A stretch of DNA of 64,000 nucleotides. Origin: Clostridia bacterium (GTDB lineage: Bacteria > Bacillota > Clostridia > Oscillospirales > CAG-272). The position numbers were made by a program, and so were the translations under genes. The first letter of the stretch is position 1, and the number at the start of each line of letters is the position of its first letter. The stretch lies in the NCBI GenBank assembly GCA_017520505.1, contig JAFXFN010000034.1, forward strand, positions 1 to 64,000, written 5' to 3'. The notes beneath the pieces are model-generated. The model was not told where the DNA came from, did not search any database, and saw only the letters and a program-made list of their open reading frames with translations. This document shows positions 6,147 to 46,321 of this stretch, in pieces.

Positions 6147-8900
6147 TTACGGCGCTTTATGCTCTTTAAGCACCGTAGTTTTATCGTAGAATGTCCAGTT
6201 ATCCTTCTCCCACAAATTGTCCTTGACGCTTGCCCAGCGTGAAGGCAAAAATGTGTTGCCGTTGTTTTTGCTCGTGGAGAATGTGTCGGATACGATGATA
6301 AACTGCTCGTGAGCTGTTTTTTCGTCACTCGTTATTTTGTTACCCGTAAACGGATTCACGGGGTTTTCGATAAGTCCGTTCATCGCAATTACAGGCACGT
6401 CGGCATTCGTCATAAATTCCTCCGACACGGTAAACTCACGGCTGTTAAAGTCCTTTACCATAAACAAGGGATAGTAAAATTCAGCATCTATTTCACCCTT
6501 CTGAAGCTCTTTTATCTGTTTTAAATTTCGTCCGTGGTCTGCAACGATGATGATTTTTGTGTTATCGTACACGCCCTCTGCCTTCAAATGGTCAAGCCAC
6601 GTGCCAAGACGGAGCATTGATGCCATATTGATATGGTAATGGCTCATTTCAAACGTGCTGTCAACCGTCATTTTAACACCGTCAACATTGAATCTGTCCT
6701 TGTGGGCTTCATCGTATTCGGTATTATCGACGTTCATTGACGGAACGTAATCGGGCGTCTGAAGAAGTGCGGGCTCGTGTGTGGAATCGTTTGTCATAAA
6801 CAAGAACGTGTTTTTCTCCTCATCCGTGACATTCGTCATTCCTATCATATTTTCAAGCACCTCGTACGACTGCATAAACGGTGCGTAAAGTCCCTCTGCC
6901 GTTGACATATCGTGTATGGTCTGGCTGGTGGTATTTCCCTGCTCAAAATCAGCCTCAACCTGATTGTAAAGTCCGTCACCGTATACAGACGGCTGGAAGA
7001 ACAAGGGCATACACTTCATAAAGCTAAGACAGAAGAAATTTCTGTGATTGTTTTCTATGACCTTTTCCTTTTGCGAAAGCTCGCCGAATCTGCCCTTTGT
7101 GATGTAAGCATCAATGTCGGTATACTCCTCAAACACGGTAAGGTCGGGAATCCACTTATAGTTTGCATAAACAGGGTCAAATACCGTTACGTCGTAGCCG
7201 TTTTGGTCAAACAGCACGGGCATAACCTTCAAAGCCTCGTTGTGCTTTGAAACGAGGGATTCTTTATCACGTTTATTAAGCTCAACGGGGGTATACTCAT
7301 ATCCGCCGAGCAATGCGGGGGAGGCGAAATTCGTATAGCCGCCGAACGAGATCGTGTTTTTGTAGTACGTGAAGCCTGCAAACATCTCACGAAGCTCGGG
7401 CTTTTCGTTGAACATATAAGGCACATACTGTCCCATTGAACGGTCAAGCATAATTACAATTACGTTTTTGCCGTTTTTGGAAAGCGTGAAATCGGGGATA
7501 GAATCATTGTCAGCCGACACTTCATTTACAGAGGTGTTTATTGCCGAAACATTCACCGCCGACATACCACCGACAGCAATAATGGCTGTTAAAAGCACGC
7601 TTGACGTTATGCGCTTGAATTTGATACAGCAGAAAATGAGAAGTGCGCAAAGCGCAATTATTATAAGCACGTTTATCCACTGCTCAAGGATGCCGAAGCT
7701 GACACCGTTTTCGTACTGGAGCGTGGGGGAGATAACACCGAGGTCGGTACCGAAGAACATATAGTTTACGACCGTGACACCCGAAAGCACCCACATAAGT
7801 CTTTCAAATACTACCTTTCCTTTGGGGCTTGCAAGCCAATAGAACACTCCGAACCAAACGAGGAAGAAGCCGCCTGCCATACAAGCAGTACGCAAAACGT
7901 ACCAAAGAGGATTATGAAAATACGTAGCGTCGATATATTCCTGCGCTGAGGATGAAATGAACGCAGACGGTATAAGCACACCCAGAAGCACCGTCAGAAA
8001 CACACCGCCGAGGATAAATGAAAGTCGGTTAGGTGTATACTGCTTTTCCCCCGGCTTGATGCTTACGTTCTTCTTTATAACGTGGATCAAAAGCGGAAGC
8101 TGTAACAAAAATGCAAGCGCAAGAAGTGCATTTTTAAGCTCTGTTTTTGCTTCGGTTGACGTAAAGAATGCATAAAGGCATACGATTCCGACAACGGAAA
8201 GGCCGATGCGCAAAACCTTTTGAGGATTTTTTATCTTGTAGAAGATATTTTTGACAAGCGAGAAAAGGTTGTTGAGCGTCCAATAAAATACGAGACACGC
8301 AGGCGATGTGTAAAGGAACACAAGGAAAAATGCCGCCATTGCGTAAAGCTGTATTTTCGTTTTAAGCGGAAAGCCTTTTAAATAAATTGCGCTTGAAATG
8401 ACGTTTATCAGCGTCATAAGCACAGGAAGGACGTTTATTGCAAGTCCGCCTATAACGAGCATACCGTCAGGTGCGCCGAGGTCCTTTATAGGGCCGAATG
8501 AAACACCCTGAAGCACCGTGAGTCCCGACAAGAACTGATATGCAGCCATAAAAAACGGAATTTCAAGCAAAAGCGACACGGAGCCGTTGAGGGCATTCGT
8601 CGGCTTGTAGTTATTCTGTCTGTAATACGTCTGCAGCATCATCATTCTCTCATCACCCGAGAACGTTTTTTTGATGTGCGCAACACCCTTTGCAAGCTTT
8701 GCTTCGATGTCACGTGAACGCTCCTGCATTTCGTCAGCACGTCTGTAAAGAGGCAGGACGAGAATGTTCATCATAAGGCTCAAAAATATTATGGCAATAC
8801 CGGGGTTGCCGATAATATTGTTGGCATTTCTGAAAATTATTTCAAATATCAGCTTCAGCGGGCCTAAAAACACCGTTTCGATAATTGACCAGAACGACAT
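6147..8900 (-). CDS. YidC/Oxa1-like membrane domain fused to an LtaS/sulfatase-like phosphotransferase domain
   Basis: 917 residues. Residues ~1-225 follow the YidC/Oxa1 core: NPGIAIIFLSLMMNILVLPL, a charged helical hairpin (RRADEMQERSRDIEAKLAKG), a cytosolic YRQNNYKP stretch and LLEIPFFMAAYQFLSG. The position of the conserved groove arginine (usually ..IR/VR LL.LPL) is Asn45. Residues ~226-460 add further membrane segments. From ~475 an alkaline-phosphatase-superfamily domain begins (GKNVIVIMLDRS): Asp486, likely nucleophile Thr523 in GYTNFASP, His708 in STHEP, Asp788-His789 in VADHG, a complete metal/catalytic set comparable to LtaS and phosphoethanolamine transferases. The catalytic part should be outside the cell. 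Its start overlaps the stop of the TagF-like gene (TAATG), so the two are translationally coupled. A role in transferring glycerol-phosphate or a phospho-substituent to a surface polymer is inferred. Confidence 0.88.
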   Translation of the reverse strand: MSFWSIIETVFLGPLKLIFEIIFRNANNIIGNPGIAIIFLSLMMNILVLPLYRRADEMQERSRDIEAKLAKGVAHIKKTFSGDERMMMLQTYYRQNNYKPTNALNGSVSLLLEIPFFMAAYQFLSGLTVLQGVSFGPIKDLGAPDGMLVIGGLAINVLPVLMTLINVISSAIYLKGFPLKTKIQLYAMAAFFLVFLYTSPACLVFYWTLNNLFSLVKNIFYKIKNPQKVLRIGLSVVGIVCLYAFFTSTEAKTELKNALLALAFLLQLPLLIHVIKKNVSIKPGEKQYTPNRLSFILGGVFLTVLLGVLIPSAFISSSAQEYIDATYFHNPLWYVLRTACMAGGFFLVWFGVFYWLASPKGKVVFERLMWVLSGVTVVNYMFFGTDLGVISPTLQYENGVSFGILEQWINVLIIIALCALLIFCCIKFKRITSSVLLTAIIAVGGMSAVNVSAINTSVNEVSADNDSIPDFTLSKNGKNVIVIMLDRSMGQYVPYMFNEKPELREMFAGFTYYKNTISFGGYTNFASPALLGGYEYTPVELNKRDKESLVSKHNEALKVMPVLFDQNGYDVTVFDPVYANYKWIPDLTVFEEYTDIDAYITKGRFGELSQKEKVIENNHRNFFCLSFMKCMPLFFQPSVYGDGLYNQVEADFEQGNTTSQTIHDMSTAEGLYAPFMQSYEVLENMIGMTNVTDEEKNTFLFMTNDSTHEPALLQTPDYVPSMNVDNTEYDEAHKDRFNVDGVKMTVDSTFEMSHYHINMASMLRLGTWLDHLKAEGVYDNTKIIIVADHGRNLKQIKELQKGEIDAEFYYPLFMVKDFNSREFTVSEEFMTNADVPVIAMNGLIENPVNPFTGNKITSDEKTAHEQFIIVSDTFSTSKNNGNTFLPSRWASVKDNLWEKDNWTFYDKTTVLKEHKAP

Positions 8901-10141
8901 TATTTCTCCTCCTCCTTCGTTGTAAGCTCATTCAGCTTTTGTTCTATGTAATCGGCTGTGCGAACGGCACCTTCACCGAAATGCTCCCACGTTTCAGCCT
9001 TTACCTGCCGTCTTCCCTCTGCATATTTGGGGTCTTCAAGGCAAGCGTCTATCACGTTTTTAAGGTCGCCCATATTTTCGTCAGTCAGTCTTTGACCGAT
9101 TCTCGGAAGTGCCGACGCCGTCCAAAGCGGCTTATCAAGCCACCACGCATCGTACGGACTCAGATCGAAATCGGGGTCGGTGTATATAACGGGCTTATCG
9201 TATACGAGCGTAAAGTCAAATATAACACCCGAAAAGTCGGAAATAAGTATATCGGAGCGTGAAAGCACGTTAAAGTTATCCGTATCCTTGTTCCACTGCA
9301 ATCTGTCGCTTTCGGGATACTCTGCCATCAGCTTATCGAGCATTTCCTTTTCCGAGGTGAACGACTGCGGGTGGGGACGGACTATGACGTTATAGCCCGT
9401 ATTCAAAAGCACGTCGAGTATTTTTCCGCCGTACACGCTCAAAATGGCGCTTTTGCCCCAGGAGGGCGCAAGAAGCACGGTGCGTTTTTCGTCCTTACGC
9501 TCAGCGCTTCCCTCTTTTTGCAGTCTTTTTGCCATTTCGTCCATATAGGGGATTCCAACCTTTACAAGCTCCTTTTCGGGAAGCTCTCTCAGCTTTTCAA
9601 GCGCACGGACGTCCTCTGCCTGATATTCACCCGACAGAAGAACTGCGTCGTAATAGTCTATGCCGAACATTCTGTAAAGTGTTATTTCACTTGCCGCATG
9701 CGGAATATGAACGTAAAAATCTGCAAGCTTTGATTTTTTCCACTGATACACCTCAAGACCGGGAGTTGTGGAAAGAACTATCGAAGCGTTCAAAAAATTA
9801 AGCTTCATAAACGCACGGCTTTCCTTGCCTATAAATTCAGCCTTTACGTGCTCAAATTTGCTTTCAAGCGCCTTGTCATCGTCAGACATCGTCATATATA
9901 CGGTGTCAATACCGCGTTCATCAAGCTCACGGCATATAGGCTCAAATATAGACCAGTACCTTTTGTTGTCAGAAAATATGACAACAGGTATCTTGTTCAT
10001 ATCCGTCTTTGCGCTTCCTCCGCCGAGGCGGAAACGAAACTTGATAAAAAACATTCTCAAAGAAAAGATACTTGCGCCTATAACGCCTATAAGTATCGTA
10101 AAAAGCATACTCCCCGTGCCGGGGTCAATATACAGCAGCAT
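8900..10141 (-). CDS. TagB/TagF-like CDP-glycerol glycerophosphotransferase
   Basis: A 413-residue protein with one N-terminal membrane segment (LLYIDPGTGSMLFTILIG...) and a GT-B-like catalytic part. The hallmarks are HIPHAASEITLYRMFG, VIVRPHPQS and SDILISDFSGVIFDF, which carry the conserved His and the Ser/Asp motif of the teichoic-acid glycerophosphotransferase family (Glyphos_transf). It should transfer glycerol-phosphate from CDP-glycerol to a membrane-linked acceptor or chain. ATG at 10141 follows GGAGATAATT; a TTG further upstream is in frame but lacks a ribosome site. It is coupled to the YidC-sulfatase fusion by a 1-base stop/start overlap and lies downstream of licCAB on the same strand. 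Confidence 0.9.
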   Translation of the reverse strand: MLLYIDPGTGSMLFTILIGVIGASIFSLRMFFIKFRFRLGGGSAKTDMNKIPVVIFSDNKRYWSIFEPICRELDERGIDTVYMTMSDDDKALESKFEHVKAEFIGKESRAFMKLNFLNASIVLSTTPGLEVYQWKKSKLADFYVHIPHAASEITLYRMFGIDYYDAVLLSGEYQAEDVRALEKLRELPEKELVKVGIPYMDEMAKRLQKEGSAERKDEKRTVLLAPSWGKSAILSVYGGKILDVLLNTGYNVIVRPHPQSFTSEKEMLDKLMAEYPESDRLQWNKDTDNFNVLSRSDILISDFSGVIFDFTLVYDKPVIYTDPDFDLSPYDAWWLDKPLWTASALPRIGQRLTDENMGDLKNVIDACLEDPKYAEGRRQVKAETWEHFGEGAVRTADYIEQKLNELTTKEEEK

Positions 10142-10214
10142 AATTATCTCCGTTTTCAAATTTAATGCTATTCGTTTTAAACGAATAGCATTTCGTGTTT
10201 TTATATGTAATACC

Positions 10215-10365
10215 TTGTTTCATCTTAAAATTGACAAATAGATTTCCGCAGGAAATCTATGCGCCTTGTAGTTGACAAAGTCAACTACGGTAGTTCGCTG
10301 TTTCCAGCGAACTACAAGGGGCTTGCGGGCATGGAGCTGTCATCGTAAAGATTTAGATGAAACAA
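10215..10365. repeat. Nested palindromic repeat element with terminal inverted repeats
   Basis: Outer ends TTGTTTCATCT (10215) and AGATGAAACAA (ending 10365) are perfect inverted repeats. Inside are ATTTCC-gca-GGAAAT, then a hairpin GTAGTTGAC-aaa-GTCAACTAC, then GTAGTTCGCTG...CAGCGAACTAC. It separates licB from the TagF-like gene. The 34550-34727 copy has the same order of parts. The layout resembles a small non-autonomous mobile element. Confidence 0.75.
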
Positions 10366-10372
10366 CATAGCA

Positions 10373-10420
10373 GGGGCGGACGTCCCCGACCGCCCGTTTC
10401 AAATCAAATTCGATTTGAAA
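10373..10420. repeat. GGGCGG...CCGCCC module and TTTCAAATC hairpin after licB
   Basis: GGGGCGGACGTCCCCGACCGCCC (two arms over 10373-10395) is one copy of a dispersed module with the general form GGGCG(variable)CGCCCCTACAA. It is followed by TTTCAAATC (10397-10405) and GATTTGAAA (10412-10420), a 9-bp stem immediately past the licB stop that could end or pause the licCAB transcript; there is no strong T tract. Confidence 0.55.
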
Positions 10421-10422
10421 TT

Positions 10423-11373
10423 TTATTCGCCTTTTTTGAATATTTCCTTGAAGTCGGCGGCGGCAAATATACCGCAGACGAGAACGACGACGGTACAGAT
10501 TATCTGAAGAGCGCTGAATGTCGGCATCGCACCGCCGAAAATAACGAGCGCAAGCGGAATAACCGCTATCCACGCACAGTACGTTACGTTAAGTGCCATA
10601 GCCTTCGATGCGCCAATCTGCGAAATCGCCTTGTAGTAGTAAAGATATGAAAGCGTTGCGAAAAGTCCTGCAATAACTATCGTGGGGATAAGCCACTTTG
10701 TGTCGGGTGTGAAAAGATTTGCCGTAAAGCCCCAGCCCTTGATAACGGGGAGAATAATGACGGCATAAGTAAGCGCCGACGTTGTCTGACGTATCTGCAA
10801 GGCGTATTCGTCCTTGACCTCGGGGTCTGTAAGGCACTTTGCAAGAATGACCGCCTCAATGCCCCAGCCGAATGCACACATAGCCGCACCGACGATACCG
10901 AGGGCGAAGTTCTGTATATCAAGCTCGGGTGAGTAGCTGAGACCGTAAACGCCGAGAAGTGTGAATATAAGGAACACCCACTGATACCATTTCATCTTTT
11001 CTTTAAGGAAGATGTAAGCAAGTATTGCGCCTATTGCGGGGAACACAGCACTTGCAACAGCACCGACCGATGCGCCCATATAAGTAAGCGCCATAACGTA
11101 GCCCGTCATACCGACAGGGCCGCCGATAACTGCGGCAACGACTACCCATTTACCGCTTTTCGTCTTCGTAAGGGCGTTCCATACGTTTTTGAGATTTCCT
11201 CTGACACCGTTGTACGCTGTCGCCCAAACGGCTGAGGAAGCATCGTGAATGAATGTGCTGATGAACGTAACGAATAAAAGCGATTCTGCCGAAAACGCTT
11301 CCATTCCCGTTGCGAGTGTAAGAATGTATGATGCGATCGCCCAAGTAATTCCTGCGATAATTCCTGCTGTCAT
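10423..11373 (-). CDS. licB: Choline permease, EamA/DMT superfamily (LicB-like)
   Basis: A 316-residue integral membrane protein with about ten hydrophobic helices in two EamA-like halves, e.g. GGPVGMTGYVMALTYMGASV and LFATLSYLYYYKAISQIGASK. Alone this would be only a drug/metabolite-type transporter, but its immediate coupling to a choline-kinase-like and a LicC-like gene points to LicB, which imports choline for phosphocholine surface decoration. Its ATG overlaps the licA stop by one base (TAATG) and GGAGGAAACAA serves as ribosome site. Substrate is inferred from neighbours. Confidence 0.85.
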   Translation of the reverse strand: MTAGIIAGITWAIASYILTLATGMEAFSAESLLFVTFISTFIHDASSAVWATAYNGVRGNLKNVWNALTKTKSGKWVVVAAVIGGPVGMTGYVMALTYMGASVGAVASAVFPAIGAILAYIFLKEKMKWYQWVFLIFTLLGVYGLSYSPELDIQNFALGIVGAAMCAFGWGIEAVILAKCLTDPEVKDEYALQIRQTTSALTYAVIILPVIKGWGFTANLFTPDTKWLIPTIVIAGLFATLSYLYYYKAISQIGASKAMALNVTYCAWIAVIPLALVIFGGAMPTFSALQIICTVVVLVCGIFAAADFKEIFKKGE

Positions 11374-12272
11374 TATTTGTTTCCTCCCTTGATACTCATA
11401 TATTCTTTTATGAAGCCTTTAAGACGTGTATATCTTTCCGTTGCCCAGTCCTCCATAGGCTGTCCGTCATAAGGAACTCTCGTTTTTGCCCACAGAGTCC
11501 ACAGATAGTCAACGTAAATTTTGCTTGCCAAAAAGTGCTTTTTGTCCTTTTCGTCGGGTGTGTGTCCGAGATATGCTGTCAAAAGCTTTTCGTCGCACTC
11601 GCCGTCGAAGCCTGCTTCAATGGAAACGTCGGCAACGTCCCACATACCGTCGTTCATTCCTGCATATTCCCAGTCGATAAGGTACATTCTGTCAGCACCG
11701 AGCACCCAGTTTTCGCAAAGCGGGTCATTGTGGCACGGCACCTTTTCAGCGCAAATAAGCGCATCAATTTCCGTTTTCACGTCCATAACGTGATTTTTCA
11801 TCTCATCATAATCGTCATACATCACCACTTTTTTGTCGGCAATTATCTTTTCGTATCCGCTTGCCATTTCAAACACCTCAAACGGTACGCCCGTGTTGAC
11901 ACCCGACGTATGCACCTTTTTGAAGATGTCTGCCATACGCTTTATGTTTTCATCATTTTTAAGCGTTTCACTTGACATTGTAACGGCATCCTTTATGTAT
12001 CTCGTCACCTTTGAGCCGTCGTCACCGAAGTAAAGAAGCTCTGCATCAACACCGAGGTCACACGCAAGGCGTGTGCTTACCATTTCGTCACGGCGGTTTA
12101 TAAGCTCCTCCGTTCCCTCTCCGGGAATACGCACGACGTAGTCCTCACCGTCTACGGTCACCTTATACGTGCGATTCGTAAGTCCACCCATACGGGAAAT
12201 TGCGCTGTAATCATCGGTTTTGAGTACCTTTTGAAGCAGTTGCTTCACGGCTGAGTATTCTGTTTTTTCCAC
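11373..12272 (-). CDS. licA: Choline kinase (LicA-like)
   Basis: A 299-residue cytosolic kinase expected to make phosphocholine from choline and ATP. It has the aminoglycoside/choline kinase motifs: GGLTNRTYKV near the N-terminus, VPCHNDPLCENWVL (Brenner motif HxDxxxxN) and LIDWEYAGMNDGMWDVAD (choline kinase motif). Start choice: a TTG at 12278 overlaps the licC stop but sits only 2-3 bases from the GGAG, whereas GTG at 12272 lies 8 bases from it, so I prefer GTG. It is translationally linked to licC upstream and licB downstream. Ethanolamine is a possible alternative substrate. Confidence 0.9.
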   Translation of the reverse strand: MEKTEYSAVKQLLQKVLKTDDYSAISRMGGLTNRTYKVTVDGEDYVVRIPGEGTEELINRRDEMVSTRLACDLGVDAELLYFGDDGSKVTRYIKDAVTMSSETLKNDENIKRMADIFKKVHTSGVNTGVPFEVFEMASGYEKIIADKKVVMYDDYDEMKNHVMDVKTEIDALICAEKVPCHNDPLCENWVLGADRMYLIDWEYAGMNDGMWDVADVSIEAGFDGECDEKLLTAYLGHTPDEKDKKHFLASKIYVDYLWTLWAKTRVPYDGQPMEDWATERYTRLKGFIKEYMSIKGGNK

Positions 12273-12274
12273 TT

Positions 12275-13144
12275 TCAAATCTCCTTTAATATTTTTTCGC
12301 TGTATGAGTATTTATATTTTTTGTCTTTGCAAACGAACGTAAAGCCGCCTGCGGCATTTGTGCCGTCCTTATATGATAAGACGGATTTTATATCACTTTC
12401 GTTACAGTCAAGCGATGAACAAATGCTTTTTAAAATATTCGAGCGTGTGTCGTTTACATAGCTTTCGTCAAATTCACGAAGCTCGTCAAGCGTGTCAAAC
12501 TCAAAAATAACGCCGTCCTTGTACTTTCTTATCTTCATTTCAAGGCTGTCAATGTTATTTATATAAATGCTCTCCCACAAAAGGTCGGCAGTTTCGGGCT
12601 TGTCGTAATCAGAGCGCAAAATCTCAAGAAATTTCTTTGTAAAATCCTCACACCAGAACACGTGGCCGAGCATATACCAGGCGTTCTCACCGCCTATTTT
12701 AACATTTCGAATGGTGCCGTTTTCATCATACTCCATACACCATTCCTTTGTTGCCCCGTCTGCGTAGAGTGCCGAATAATAGCAATCCGACACTTCCTTT
12801 TCAAACGGATTTTCGGAAAAATAATTATCCGCTGAGCAAATATATGAGTTTTTAAGTATACCCTTAACGGCGTAAATGCTTGCGTTGTTGTTTCTCGTCA
12901 GAAAGTCGGGATTATGCACGAGCTTAACGGAAAATTTTTCTTCAAGATACGAAAACATCTCCGCCTTGTAGCCTGTAACGACGTATATTTCATCAATGCC
13001 CGCTTCCTTAAGCTGGCGTATCTGACGTTCTATAAGCACCTCACCCTTGACGGTGATAAGCGCCTTGGGCATTTCGTACGAAAGCGGTGCAAAACGGCTT
13101 GAAGTTCCTGCCGCCATAATTACCGCGTTATCAACAATATGCAT
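12275..13144 (-). CDS. licC: CTP:phosphocholine cytidylyltransferase (LicC-like) with C-terminal extension
   Basis: A 289-residue nucleotidyltransferase. The N-terminal signature AVIMAAGTSSRFAPLSYEMPKALI is that of sugar-1-phosphate/phosphocholine nucleotidyltransferases. ICSADNYF supplies the metal-binding Asp, and the short Rossmann-like core matches LicC, which makes CDP-choline. The last ~60 residues (from about 228, NDTRSNILKSICSSLDCNES) extend beyond the usual ~230-residue LicC and have no function I recognise. First gene of the licCAB operon; GGGGACAAAAA precedes the ATG. Confidence 0.87.
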   Translation of the reverse strand: MHIVDNAVIMAAGTSSRFAPLSYEMPKALITVKGEVLIERQIRQLKEAGIDEIYVVTGYKAEMFSYLEEKFSVKLVHNPDFLTRNNNASIYAVKGILKNSYICSADNYFSENPFEKEVSDCYYSALYADGATKEWCMEYDENGTIRNVKIGGENAWYMLGHVFWCEDFTKKFLEILRSDYDKPETADLLWESIYINNIDSLEMKIRKYKDGVIFEFDTLDELREFDESYVNDTRSNILKSICSSLDCNESDIKSVLSYKDGTNAAGGFTFVCKDKKYKYSYSEKILKEI

Positions 13145-13190: not shown

Positions 13191-13219
13191 ATTATAGCAC
13201 TAACTATTTACGTTGTCAA
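13191..13219 (-). promoter_or_regulatory. Consensus sigma-A promoter of licCAB
   Basis: Minus strand TTGACA (13214-13219), 17-base spacer, TATAAT (13191-13196): a perfect match at both hexamers, about 47 bases before the licC start. Strong constitutive expression is expected unless a repressor acts; no operator is evident. Confidence 0.85.
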
Positions 13220-13248: not shown

Positions 13249-13275
13249 ATATGGCGGGAGTATCTCCCGCCATAT
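13249..13275 (-). terminator. Intrinsic terminator of the FAD oxidoreductase gene
   Basis: ATGGCGGGA pairs with TCCCGCCAT around a 5-base loop, extended by flanking A-T pairs. On the minus strand it is followed by TTTTATTATTTATTT. It isolates licCAB from the upstream gene. Confidence 0.85.
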
Positions 13276-22944: not shown

Positions 22945-25413
22945 TTAAACACCCTTCTTGCTCTTTCTGATGAGCTCTTCGCTTGTGAAGCTTTCTTCAG
23001 CAACGTATCCGGGAATGGGCATGAGCTTTTCGTGGATAGCGTCGATGAACCAAGAAGGCTGCGGGAAGAATTCCTTATCGTATTCGAATGCGGGCGTGAT
23101 CCAGTTCTTAGCACCAACAACTACAGGGGGAGCATCGAGGTAATCGAATGCGAGCTGTGTGATGTTCTGTGCCATATCGTTGAGGATGTTACCTCTTGTG
23201 CAAGCATCGGAAGCGAGAAGGATCTTACCTGTCTTCTTAACGGATTCAACAACGGGCTCGTAGTTGAAAGGAACAACGGAACGAGCGTCGATAACTTCTG
23301 CTGTGATACCGTACTTTTCTTCGAGGATCTTAGCAGCGTCGAGAACTCTGTAAAGTGTTGCACCGATTGTAAGGATCGTGAGGTCTTTACCTTCACGTCT
23401 TACAGCGGGTTCACCGAAGGGAACTTCGTATGTGCCTGTGGGAACACCTTCCTTAACGAATCTTTCACCCATATCGTAGATTCTCTGGCTTTCAAAGAAT
23501 ACAACGGGGTCTGTGCCGTTAAGTGCTGTTGTCATAAGACCCTTAGCATCGTAAGGTGTTACAGGGAATACAACCTTCAAGCCGGGGATGTGAGCACAAA
23601 GTGCTGTCCAGTCCTGGCTGTGCTGTGCGCCGTACTTGGAACCAACGGAAACACGGAGAACAACGGGCATCTTCAAGCCGCCTGCAGACATTGACTGCCA
23701 CTTAGCCATCTGGTTGAAGATTTCGTCGCCTGCGCAACCGATAAAGTCACAGTACATAAGCTCAACAATAACACGACCGCCTGCCATACCGTAGCCGCAA
23801 GCTGTACCGCAGATAGCGGATTCGGAAATGGGGGAGTTGAAGAGTCTGTGGTAAGGAAGCGCTTCTGTAAGACCTCTGTATACTGCGAATGCACCGTTCC
23901 AGAAACGAACGTCTTCACCGTATGCGATAAGTGTGGGGTCTTCGTAGAACTTAGCGATGATAGCTTCGAAGATACCGTCTCTGATGTTGTACATCTTCAT
24001 CTTGGAAACTTCCTTGCCCTTTTCATCGTAAGCATAACGGATCTTTGTAGCAAGCTTCTTAACGTTTTCGTTTTCTTCCATAGGCTGGGAAACTTCAACG
24101 GGTCTGTCTTCCATCTTAAGAACCTTTTCATTGGAGAACATAAGGTCTTCAAGGAATGCGGGGTTCTTGTCATAGTCTGTGTAAGGAGCTATTTCAAGAT
24201 CGGAAGCAAGCATGAACATTCTGTGGTTTCTGTCGATAACAGCAGCCTTAACAGCTTCAAGCTCTTCTGCTGTTGCAACGCCTGCATCTACGATCTGCTG
24301 GGGGAATATTGTAAGGGGATCGAGCTTCTGCCATTCAGCTTCCTCTTCGGGTGTTCTGTATGACATAACGTCGGATGTGGAGTGTCCGCCGAGACGGTAA
24401 GTAACGAGGTCGAGAAGAACAGGACCCTTACCTTCCTTGATGAGAGCCATCTTGCGCTTGTAAGCGTCGATAACTGCCAAGGGGTTCCAACCGTTTACTC
24501 TTTCAGCGTTCATCTGGTTCTGTGCGATGCAACCGAGTCTTACGAGGTCGCCGTAAGCCATTGTTTCGCCTCTTGTCTGACCGCCCATACCGTAGTGGTT
24601 GTTGTTGAAGTTGAAGATGATCGGAAGACCACCCTTGTAGCCGTCTTCCCAGAGTTCATTGAACTGGTCCATAGCTGCGAAGTTCATAGCTTCGAATACG
24701 GGACCGCGTCCTGCGGCGCCGTCGCCTGCGTTAGCAACTACGATACCGTCTTTCTTATTACACTTCTTAAAGAGAGCAACACCTGTTGCGATGGGGCCTG
24801 CGCCGCCAACGATAGCGTTGTTCGGGAAAATACCGAAGGGAAGGAAGAATGCGTGCATGGAGCCGCCGAGACCTCTGGAGAAGCCCATATCCTTAGCGAA
24901 AAGCTCGCACATAAGGCCGTACATAAAGTAGTCCTTTGCAAGATCCTTAACGTTTGTAGCTGTGGAGTACTTCTTAACAACTTCGTACTGAACACCGCCG
25001 TTGTATGTTTCCATTATCTTTGTAAGCTCTTCATCGGAAAGCTTCTTGATAGCGGACATCGCCTTAGCGATAACCTCGTGGTGGGAACGGTGTGTACCGA
25101 AAATGAAGTCGTTAACACCGAGGTTGTAAGCCTGACCTACAGCTGTTGCTTCTTCACCGAGACCGAGGTGAGAAGGGCCGGGATATGTGAATTCCTTGCC
25201 GTTATAGATACCCTTCTTCTTGATATCCATAAGCATTTCTTCAAATTCTCTGATAGCAACCATATCGGCATACATACCGATAAAGTCTTCCTTGGAGTAG
25301 TTGTCCTTTTCATCAGCAACTGTCTTGTCGTATTCACATACGGGAATATCTTCAAATGTCACTGTGCGCTTTTTAAAGCTTTCTTTAGGGTCTACAAACA
25401 TTGACTTAGGCAT
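22945..25413 (-). CDS. 2-oxoacid (pyruvate-type) dehydrogenase E1, alpha and beta chains fused
   Basis: 822 residues. Residues ~30-430 are an E1-alpha chain (THRSHHEVIAKAM, then GDGAAGRG and NFNNNHYGMGG, the thiamine-diphosphate motif). Residues ~475-822 are an E1-beta chain (IAYGEDVRFWNGAFAVYRGL, FNSPISESAICGTACGYGMA, ARSVVPFNYEPVVESVKKTG). It should decarboxylate a 2-oxo acid and acylate the lipoyl group of E2. Pyruvate, acetoin or branched-chain substrates are all possible. Alpha and beta are separate genes in most bacteria, so the fusion is worth noting. It follows E3 by 32 bases in the E2-E3-E1 operon; GGAG precedes the ATG by 10 bases. Confidence 0.92.
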   Translation of the reverse strand: MPKSMFVDPKESFKKRTVTFEDIPVCEYDKTVADEKDNYSKEDFIGMYADMVAIREFEEMLMDIKKKGIYNGKEFTYPGPSHLGLGEEATAVGQAYNLGVNDFIFGTHRSHHEVIAKAMSAIKKLSDEELTKIMETYNGGVQYEVVKKYSTATNVKDLAKDYFMYGLMCELFAKDMGFSRGLGGSMHAFFLPFGIFPNNAIVGGAGPIATGVALFKKCNKKDGIVVANAGDGAAGRGPVFEAMNFAAMDQFNELWEDGYKGGLPIIFNFNNNHYGMGGQTRGETMAYGDLVRLGCIAQNQMNAERVNGWNPLAVIDAYKRKMALIKEGKGPVLLDLVTYRLGGHSTSDVMSYRTPEEEAEWQKLDPLTIFPQQIVDAGVATAEELEAVKAAVIDRNHRMFMLASDLEIAPYTDYDKNPAFLEDLMFSNEKVLKMEDRPVEVSQPMEENENVKKLATKIRYAYDEKGKEVSKMKMYNIRDGIFEAIIAKFYEDPTLIAYGEDVRFWNGAFAVYRGLTEALPYHRLFNSPISESAICGTACGYGMAGGRVIVELMYCDFIGCAGDEIFNQMAKWQSMSAGGLKMPVVLRVSVGSKYGAQHSQDWTALCAHIPGLKVVFPVTPYDAKGLMTTALNGTDPVVFFESQRIYDMGERFVKEGVPTGTYEVPFGEPAVRREGKDLTILTIGATLYRVLDAAKILEEKYGITAEVIDARSVVPFNYEPVVESVKKTGKILLASDACTRGNILNDMAQNITQLAFDYLDAPPVVVGAKNWITPAFEYDKEFFPQPSWFIDAIHEKLMPIPGYVAEESFTSEELIRKSKKGV

Positions 25414-46144: not shown

Positions 46145-46281
46145 GTTTTGGTTTTGTCTTCCGAAAACAGAAAACGCCTTCTTTTCTCGACCGAAAAGAA
46201 AGCGTAAAAATACTTAAAGTATATACCGTTTTCCCCTCGGCAGGAAAGCTTTCGCTTTTACCGAAACCTGCTGTCTTCGGA
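46145..46281 (-). ncRNA. L10 leader (ribosomal protein autoregulatory RNA)
   Basis: The minus-strand transcript carries GACAGCAGGTTTCGG and CCTGCCGAGG, the conserved kink-turn-like internal loop of the Bacillota L10 leader, then a second stem (CTTTTCTCGACCGAAAAG-type pairing) just upstream of the rplJ ribosome site. The L10(L12)4 complex is known to bind this RNA and repress rplJL. It lies directly between promoter and gene, as expected. Confidence 0.85.
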
Positions 46282-46292
46282 TTAACACGTGG

Positions 46293-46321
46293 ATTATATC
46301 ATATATTTTATTATTTGTCAA
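46293..46321 (-). promoter_or_regulatory. Consensus promoter of rplJL
   Basis: Minus strand TTGACA (46316-46321), 17-base spacer, TATAAT (46293-46298). No terminator is visible between lexA and this promoter, so lexA read-through is possible. Confidence 0.85.

Follow-up and report, generated by a model that had tools for sequence, protein, structure and literature searches.

Which protein transfers phosphocholine in a genome that carries the genes to make cytidine diphosphate (CDP)-choline and no detectable gene for LicD, the usual marker of bacterial phosphocholine decoration of glycans? The question is raised by the first 64,000 nucleotides of contig JAFXFN010000034.1 of a gut-type Clostridia bacterium (GenBank assembly GCA_017520505.1; 1.97 Mb in 35 contigs, 96.4% complete), a stretch referred to here as the window, where licC, licA and licB are followed on the same strand by a gene for a TagF-like protein and by a gene for a protein in which a YidC-like and a sulfatase-type domain are fused (Table 1). 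Based on sequence comparisons, our preferred answer is that the locus would encode a phosphocholine decoration pathway free of LicD, in which these last two proteins, hereafter the pair, carry out the transfer in its place. We hold this to be somewhat probable as a whole, and consider it quite likely that the pair is a dedicated consumer of CDP-choline replacing LicD. On these grounds we class the locus as a Lic-1 phosphocholine pathway of a modified, so far undescribed form; in the open-access literature, the pair was found described nowhere.

CDP-choline supply and the absence of LicD

The original prediction took licCAB to be the source of CDP-choline, and similarity to solved proteins of Streptococcus pneumoniae agrees with it. 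LicC matches the cytidine triphosphate (CTP):phosphocholine cytidylyltransferase LicC (1jyk; phmmer E 1.9e-40, residues 6-231), LicA matches choline kinase (4r77; E 2.7e-43), and LicB matches LicB (7b0k; E 6e-27), its sole match in the PDB. By homology, choline is thus brought in by LicB, phosphorylated by LicA and turned into CDP-choline by LicC. A LicA/LicB/LicC cluster is common to this locus and to the Lic-1 loci of Haemophilus influenzae, S. pneumoniae and their relatives. Lic-1, however, includes licD, whereas the genome studied here is without LicD and has the TagF-like and fusion genes adjoining the cluster instead. Lic-1 is reported to co-occur with LicD in organisms that carry phosphocholine on glycans (PMC10434233). 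No LicD had been noted in the window, and our PF04991 profile search extended this to the whole genome, with no match in any of the 35 contigs, on the basis of which we rejected the idea that a LicD gene had been overlooked elsewhere.

Among 196 related genomes the fusion was found in 12, and choline kinase (counted at 50 bits or more, one split hit included) was present in nine of these 12 compared to seven of the 184 genomes without the fusion (p=2.3e-9); in relatives, in other words, licCAB and the fusion co-occur strongly. Eight of the nine genomes with both fusion and choline kinase have no LicD. When 50 further genomes carrying the pair were considered, choline kinase was found in 29, 15 of which are without LicD, bringing the total to 23 of 38 choline kinase-bearing pair genomes; 12 of those 23 are also without a TagD-like match. 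LicD was seen in three of seven related genomes that have choline kinase but no fusion, and in one of them (G051) it lies 1.2 kb from the kinase gene. The suggestion that transfer might be performed by an unlinked LicD finds no support in the present genome, where none was detected, but may apply to the 15 of the 38 choline kinase-bearing pair genomes in which LicD is present.

The gene order licC-licA-licB, TagF-like gene, fusion gene noted at first was confirmed and recurs in many genomes, which argues that it is neither due to chance nor an assembly artifact. Named GTDB contigs yielded at least 554 relatives, and 79 loci were read from the best 80 by similarity. The TagF-like gene is present at 72 of these 79 fusion loci, and, with antisense and alternative-frame open reading frames (ORFs) of the pair excluded, LicC/LicA-like genes (37 loci) are the only families outside the pair to occur at more than 15 of the 79, LicB itself being found at 15. 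The position and make-up of the choline genes vary, as licCAB lies upstream of the pair at L035-L037 and downstream of it at L040 and L045; fusions of a winged helix-turn-helix domain with LicC and LicA represent another form of the CDP-choline module near the pair, and three unrelated importers, of the EamA (LicB), NCS1 and BCCT types, occur in such modules at pair loci. On the tree of TagF-like proteins, linkage to a choline module requires 14 changes, at least 11 of them forced by well-supported branches.

Several observations weigh against the proposal that the pair replaces LicD. LicD is present in 28 of the 50 further pair genomes and a strong choline kinase is lacking in 21 of the 50, hence the replacement is not universal. 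LicD even adjoins the pair at some loci, namely L083 and L075 of Schwartzia, where it lies directly upstream of the fusion gene. Overall, LicD is not significantly depleted in genomes with the fusion (p=1.0), which limits our claim to the choline-bearing genomes. Furthermore, the genomes and loci counted here are related rather than independent, and most are metagenome-assembled genomes of partial or unrecorded completeness. For the fusion, the PF00884 match has a weak score, just above the cut-off, the similarity to Escherichia coli EptA is weak (E 0.04), and the structure model has a mean predicted local distance difference test (pLDDT) value of 70. A CDP-alcohol phosphatidyltransferase of this genome (L002) could use CDP-choline instead of the pair and, more generally, all support consists of association and homology.

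The TagF-like protein and the YidC-sulfatase fusion

The TagF-like protein matches PF04464 at 52.5 bits (cut-off 22.1), a family characterized by transfer from a CDP-activated donor, CDP-glycerol or CDP-ribitol in the case of TagF, TarF and TarL. With these enzymes it shares the glycosyltransferase B (GT-B) fold, a family score above cut-off and both histidine motifs; His148 is kept in 74 and His257 in 75 of 75 homologues, and both align with the motifs of the TarF-like protein encoded by the same genome. Its AlphaFold model (mean pLDDT 82) has TagF 3l7k as its best PDB match by Foldseek, with a template modeling (TM) score of about 0.55. Unlike TagF, TarF and TarL, however, it belongs to a remote subfamily that NCBIfam TarF/TarL models match weakly (TarF 15 bits), it has an N-terminal membrane helix with an invariant YIDPGT motif (an LYIDPGTGS-type N-terminus), and its gene pairs with CDP-choline genes and persists where TagD is lacking. 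It also has SDFSG at the place where the TarF-like protein just mentioned has TDYSS. A search of plasmids for this protein gave zero matches.

The fusion consists, in this order, of a YidC/Oxa1 domain, about seven further transmembrane helices and a C-terminal sulfatase-type domain, the latter predicted from average hydropathy and charge to lie outside the membrane. In the sulfatase domain, all 97 fusions compared carry D486, T523, H708, D788 and H789, and a weak alignment places T523 at the nucleophile threonine motif of EptA. Foldseek matches of this domain include phosphonate monoester hydrolase, MCR-1, sulfatases and LtaS/LtaP. The catalytic threonine, the metal-ligand pattern and the extracytoplasmic location are thus features in common with enzymes of the PptA/EptA/MCR and LtaS types; what distinguishes the fusion from them is the YidC-like domain and the roughly seven helices ahead of the catalytic domain, and the TagF-like partner gene. 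A member of the alkaline phosphatase superfamily, PptA of Neisseria, is reported to move phosphocholine to pilin (PMC10434233).

We infer the chemistry, the acceptor and the order of the steps as follows. The membrane-anchored TagF-like protein would take CDP-choline in place of CDP-glycerol or CDP-ribitol and, at the cytoplasmic face, put phosphocholine on an acceptor that is a lipid or is linked to one; on the outside, the fusion would then pass phosphocholine, via a phospho-threonine intermediate at T523, to a surface acceptor. Enzymes of the EptA/PptA and LtaS types transfer from lipid donors through such steps. With CDP-choline synthesis in the cytoplasm and the sulfatase domain predicted outside, the simplest scheme has one step on each side of the membrane, although we propose this division between an inner TagF-like and an outer fusion step only tentatively. 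The original prediction had offered the fusion as one possible transferase; the neighboring genes do remain the likely site of transfer, but the TagF-like protein is the likelier user of CDP-choline, given that the catalytic domain of the fusion is predicted to face a compartment where no CDP-choline is expected.

The YidC-like part may aid the membrane crossing of the lipid-linked intermediate, as YidC is among the insertases that scramble lipids in vitro (PMC10491306), but we regard a scrambling role as doubtful. The fuller picture of a widespread two-protein machine for surface modification in Clostridia, in which a PF04464 enzyme charges a lipid carrier from CDP-choline (and perhaps from other cytidylylated headgroups in some lineages) and the fusion both flips this lipid and passes the headgroup on outside, is in our opinion rather unlikely to be correct in this form; in the fusion, an insertase fold would then have been put to new use and linked with its transferase. 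Should the pair indeed replace LicD, many gut and rumen Clostridia with CDP-choline genes would have been overlooked as organisms that display phosphocholine, which would matter for anti-phosphocholine antibodies, for the binding of C-reactive protein and for how choline is used in the gut. The fusion would also lend itself naturally to testing whether an insertase fold was recruited for lipid scrambling. Some phosphocholine-expressing species are, in fact, without a known pathway (PMC10434233).

A YidC domain could also mean that the fusion is a device for protein insertion or a chaperone, associated with choline genes only incidentally. The domain is certainly recognizable, and its PF02096 match with a five-transmembrane topology is conserved and shared with YidC/Oxa1 insertases. 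These, however, have no transferase domain joined on, and an ordinary YidC is encoded separately in 14 of 14 pair genomes checked. Together with the invariance of the sulfatase catalytic residues, and with arrays in which several fusions accompany a single TagF-like gene (L097, L051, L100 and genome G241), an arrangement that suits one donor and several acceptors better than it suits an insertase, this makes the insertion device very improbable. The groove position of YidC is Asn in 94 of 97 fusions and, in the present genome, contrasts with Lys in the ordinary YidC. The argument that losing this charge proves the insertase function to be gone was withdrawn, as ordinary YidCs of these genomes vary at the same position (K, R, Q, E). 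YidC domains also occur in two open frames of 725-726 aa that are neither ordinary YidC nor fusion (G010 C4:97018-97785 and G023 C13:1523-2290).

The possibility that CDP-choline is first converted to phosphatidylcholine by an unlinked PF01066 enzyme, that the fusion uses phosphatidylcholine as its donor, and that the TagF-like protein does other work, for instance on the acceptor, has a precedent in PptA, for which phosphatidylcholine was proposed as the donor. The genome does encode three PF01066 proteins, namely PgsA, a PssA-like protein (77.7 bits, below the PssA cut-off of 107) and L002, which is without assignment. No NCBIfam model ties L002 to choline, however, nor was any PF01066 family recognized among the recurring neighbors of the pair, and the tight linkage of the TagF-like, fusion and lic genes would be left unexplained, so that we consider this route improbable.

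Polymer and headgroup

The original prediction further held that the locus builds a glycerol-phosphate polymer bearing phosphocholine. Under such a scheme the TagF-like protein would make poly(glycerol phosphate) or a polymer resembling lipoteichoic acid, the fusion would act like a lipoteichoic acid synthase, and phosphocholine would be added either by the fusion or by a LicD that had escaped notice. PF04464 membership, the LtaS-like fold matches and the presence of a TagD-like gene in this genome speak for it. Of the 62 pair genomes, however, 27 gave no match to a TagD-like CDP-glycerol synthase (TIGR01518, E 0.001). These include three genomes of 91-98% completeness that carry choline kinase (G038, G045 and G057). 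TagD was also not seen among the recurring neighbors of the pair. The TagD-like gene found here, moreover, lies on another contig with a TarF-like partner of its own, beside a glycosyltransferase family 2 (GT2) gene (C7:46441-47999); this is a separate locus of glycerol-phosphate type, to which such chemistry, if the cell has it at all, would belong. Lastly, LicD was not found, and no NCBIfam LtaS model matches the fusion, which with its roughly 12 transmembrane helices and YidC domain resembles the five-transmembrane LtaS in fold only. Our results do not support the idea that what these loci make in common is a glycerol-phosphate polymer, and we judge this scheme to have little chance of being right. 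A TagD-like cytidylyltransferase joined to a GFO/IDH/MocA oxidoreductase is encoded upstream of the pair at L079:2326-3720, and TagD-like matches were also noted in ORFs of similar size (445-466 aa) in other pair genomes.

Compatible with the LicD-free pathway we favor is the view of the pair as a general surface-modification module, whose headgroup (phosphocholine, 2-aminoethylphosphonate (AEP), ethanolamine and others) is set by whichever cytidylyltransferase module was acquired, choline being the commonest. As an alternative in its own right we see this as a serious possibility, if somewhat short of an even chance. That the headgroup varies among pair loci is probable because many pair genomes carry LicD or are without choline genes, and because some loci are of phosphonate type, have LicC-CobD-like or PhnU2-like genes, or are free of a cytidylyltransferase; none was assigned by tree labels at 43 of the 79 pair loci, some of which are on cut contigs.

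In Schwartzia succinivorans DSM 10502 (L075:7152-15455), LicD directly precedes the fusion gene, and genes for phosphonopyruvate decarboxylase, PepM with a cytidylyltransferase, AEP aminotransferase and a LicC-like protein lie between the fusion gene and the nearby TagF-like gene. These phosphonate genes next to the pair speak for a variable headgroup, but LicD stands there as well, phosphonate genes often lie near LicD in these genomes, and the mutual exclusion of PepM and choline kinase is not significant (p=0.07); for these reasons widespread PepM was not used as proof of an AEP headgroup. A LicC-like cytidylyltransferase that activates a small surface headgroup is also known from PntC/Pnt phosphonate tailoring, which proceeds via cytidine monophosphate (CMP)-AEP, and the paper describing it reports LicD-like phosphotransferases nearby, while TagF, YidC and sulfatase go unmentioned (PMC6697681).

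Further diversity is provided by LicC-like cytidylyltransferases joined to a CobD/HisC-like pyridoxal phosphate enzyme, found beside the pair at L083:4886-6736 and L099:4876-6732, and beside the fusion gene only at L087:2834-4714; such proteins might convert a phosphorylated amino acid to CDP-ethanolamine or a comparable headgroup. At L103:15915-18599, the fusion gene has beside it an 895-aa ORF that combines a PhnU2-like ATP-binding cassette permease with a LicC-like nucleotidyltransferase and is preceded by a PhnT2-like ATPase; no kinase was seen at this locus, which fits the import of a ready phosphonate.

Layout of the locus

The five genes form two overlapping blocks rather than one continuous overlap. 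licC and licA share 4 nt, licA and licB share 1 nt, and the fusion ORF begins on the final base of the TagF-like one (8900), while licB and the TagF-like gene lie about 280 bp apart. For the latter, a start at ATG 10141, behind a GGAG-like Shine-Dalgarno sequence, fits better than TTG 10159. The gap contains stem-loops at 10371-10388 and 10164-10192, and a 30-base piece of it is present as a single copy within the window.

Table 1. Coordinates of the features of the lic/pair locus within the window
Feature	Coordinates	Strand	Description	Basis
licC	12275..13144	-	289 aa, CTP:phosphocholine cytidylyltransferase	phmmer to 1jyk; PF12804
licA	11373..12278	-	301 aa, choline kinase	phmmer to 4r77; PF01633 (2e-21)
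licB	10423..11373	-	316 aa, choline importer, drug/metabolite transporter (DMT)/EamA type	phmmer to 7b0k; PF00892
licB/TagF-like intergenic gap	10142..10422	-	several inverted repeats	direct reading of sequence
TagF-like gene	8900..10141	-	PF04464, GT-B fold, N-terminal membrane helix	PF04464 (4.9e-14); Foldseek TagF 3l7k
YidC-sulfatase fusion	6147..8900	-	917 aa, about 12 predicted transmembrane helices, C-terminal extracytoplasmic sulfatase-type domain	
YidC/Oxa1 domain of fusion	8238..8801	-	residues 34-221	PF02096 (1.5e-21); HMMER alignment to YidC 3wo7
Sulfatase/alkaline phosphatase superfamily domain of fusion	6396..7469	-	residues 478-835	PF00884 (1.2e-5)
Promoter-like site just 5' of licC	13191..13219	-	12/12 consensus, TG before -10	consensus scan
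Terminator-like hairpin ending the gene upstream of licC	13249..13275	-		consensus scan

An Rfam search of the window found no regulatory RNA near the lic/pair locus, and identified a ribosomal protein L10 leader (RF00557) at 46160-46298. Elsewhere in the window, an 822-aa ORF at 22945-25413 resembles, as judged by eye, a 2-oxo-acid dehydrogenase E1 with its alpha and beta parts joined.

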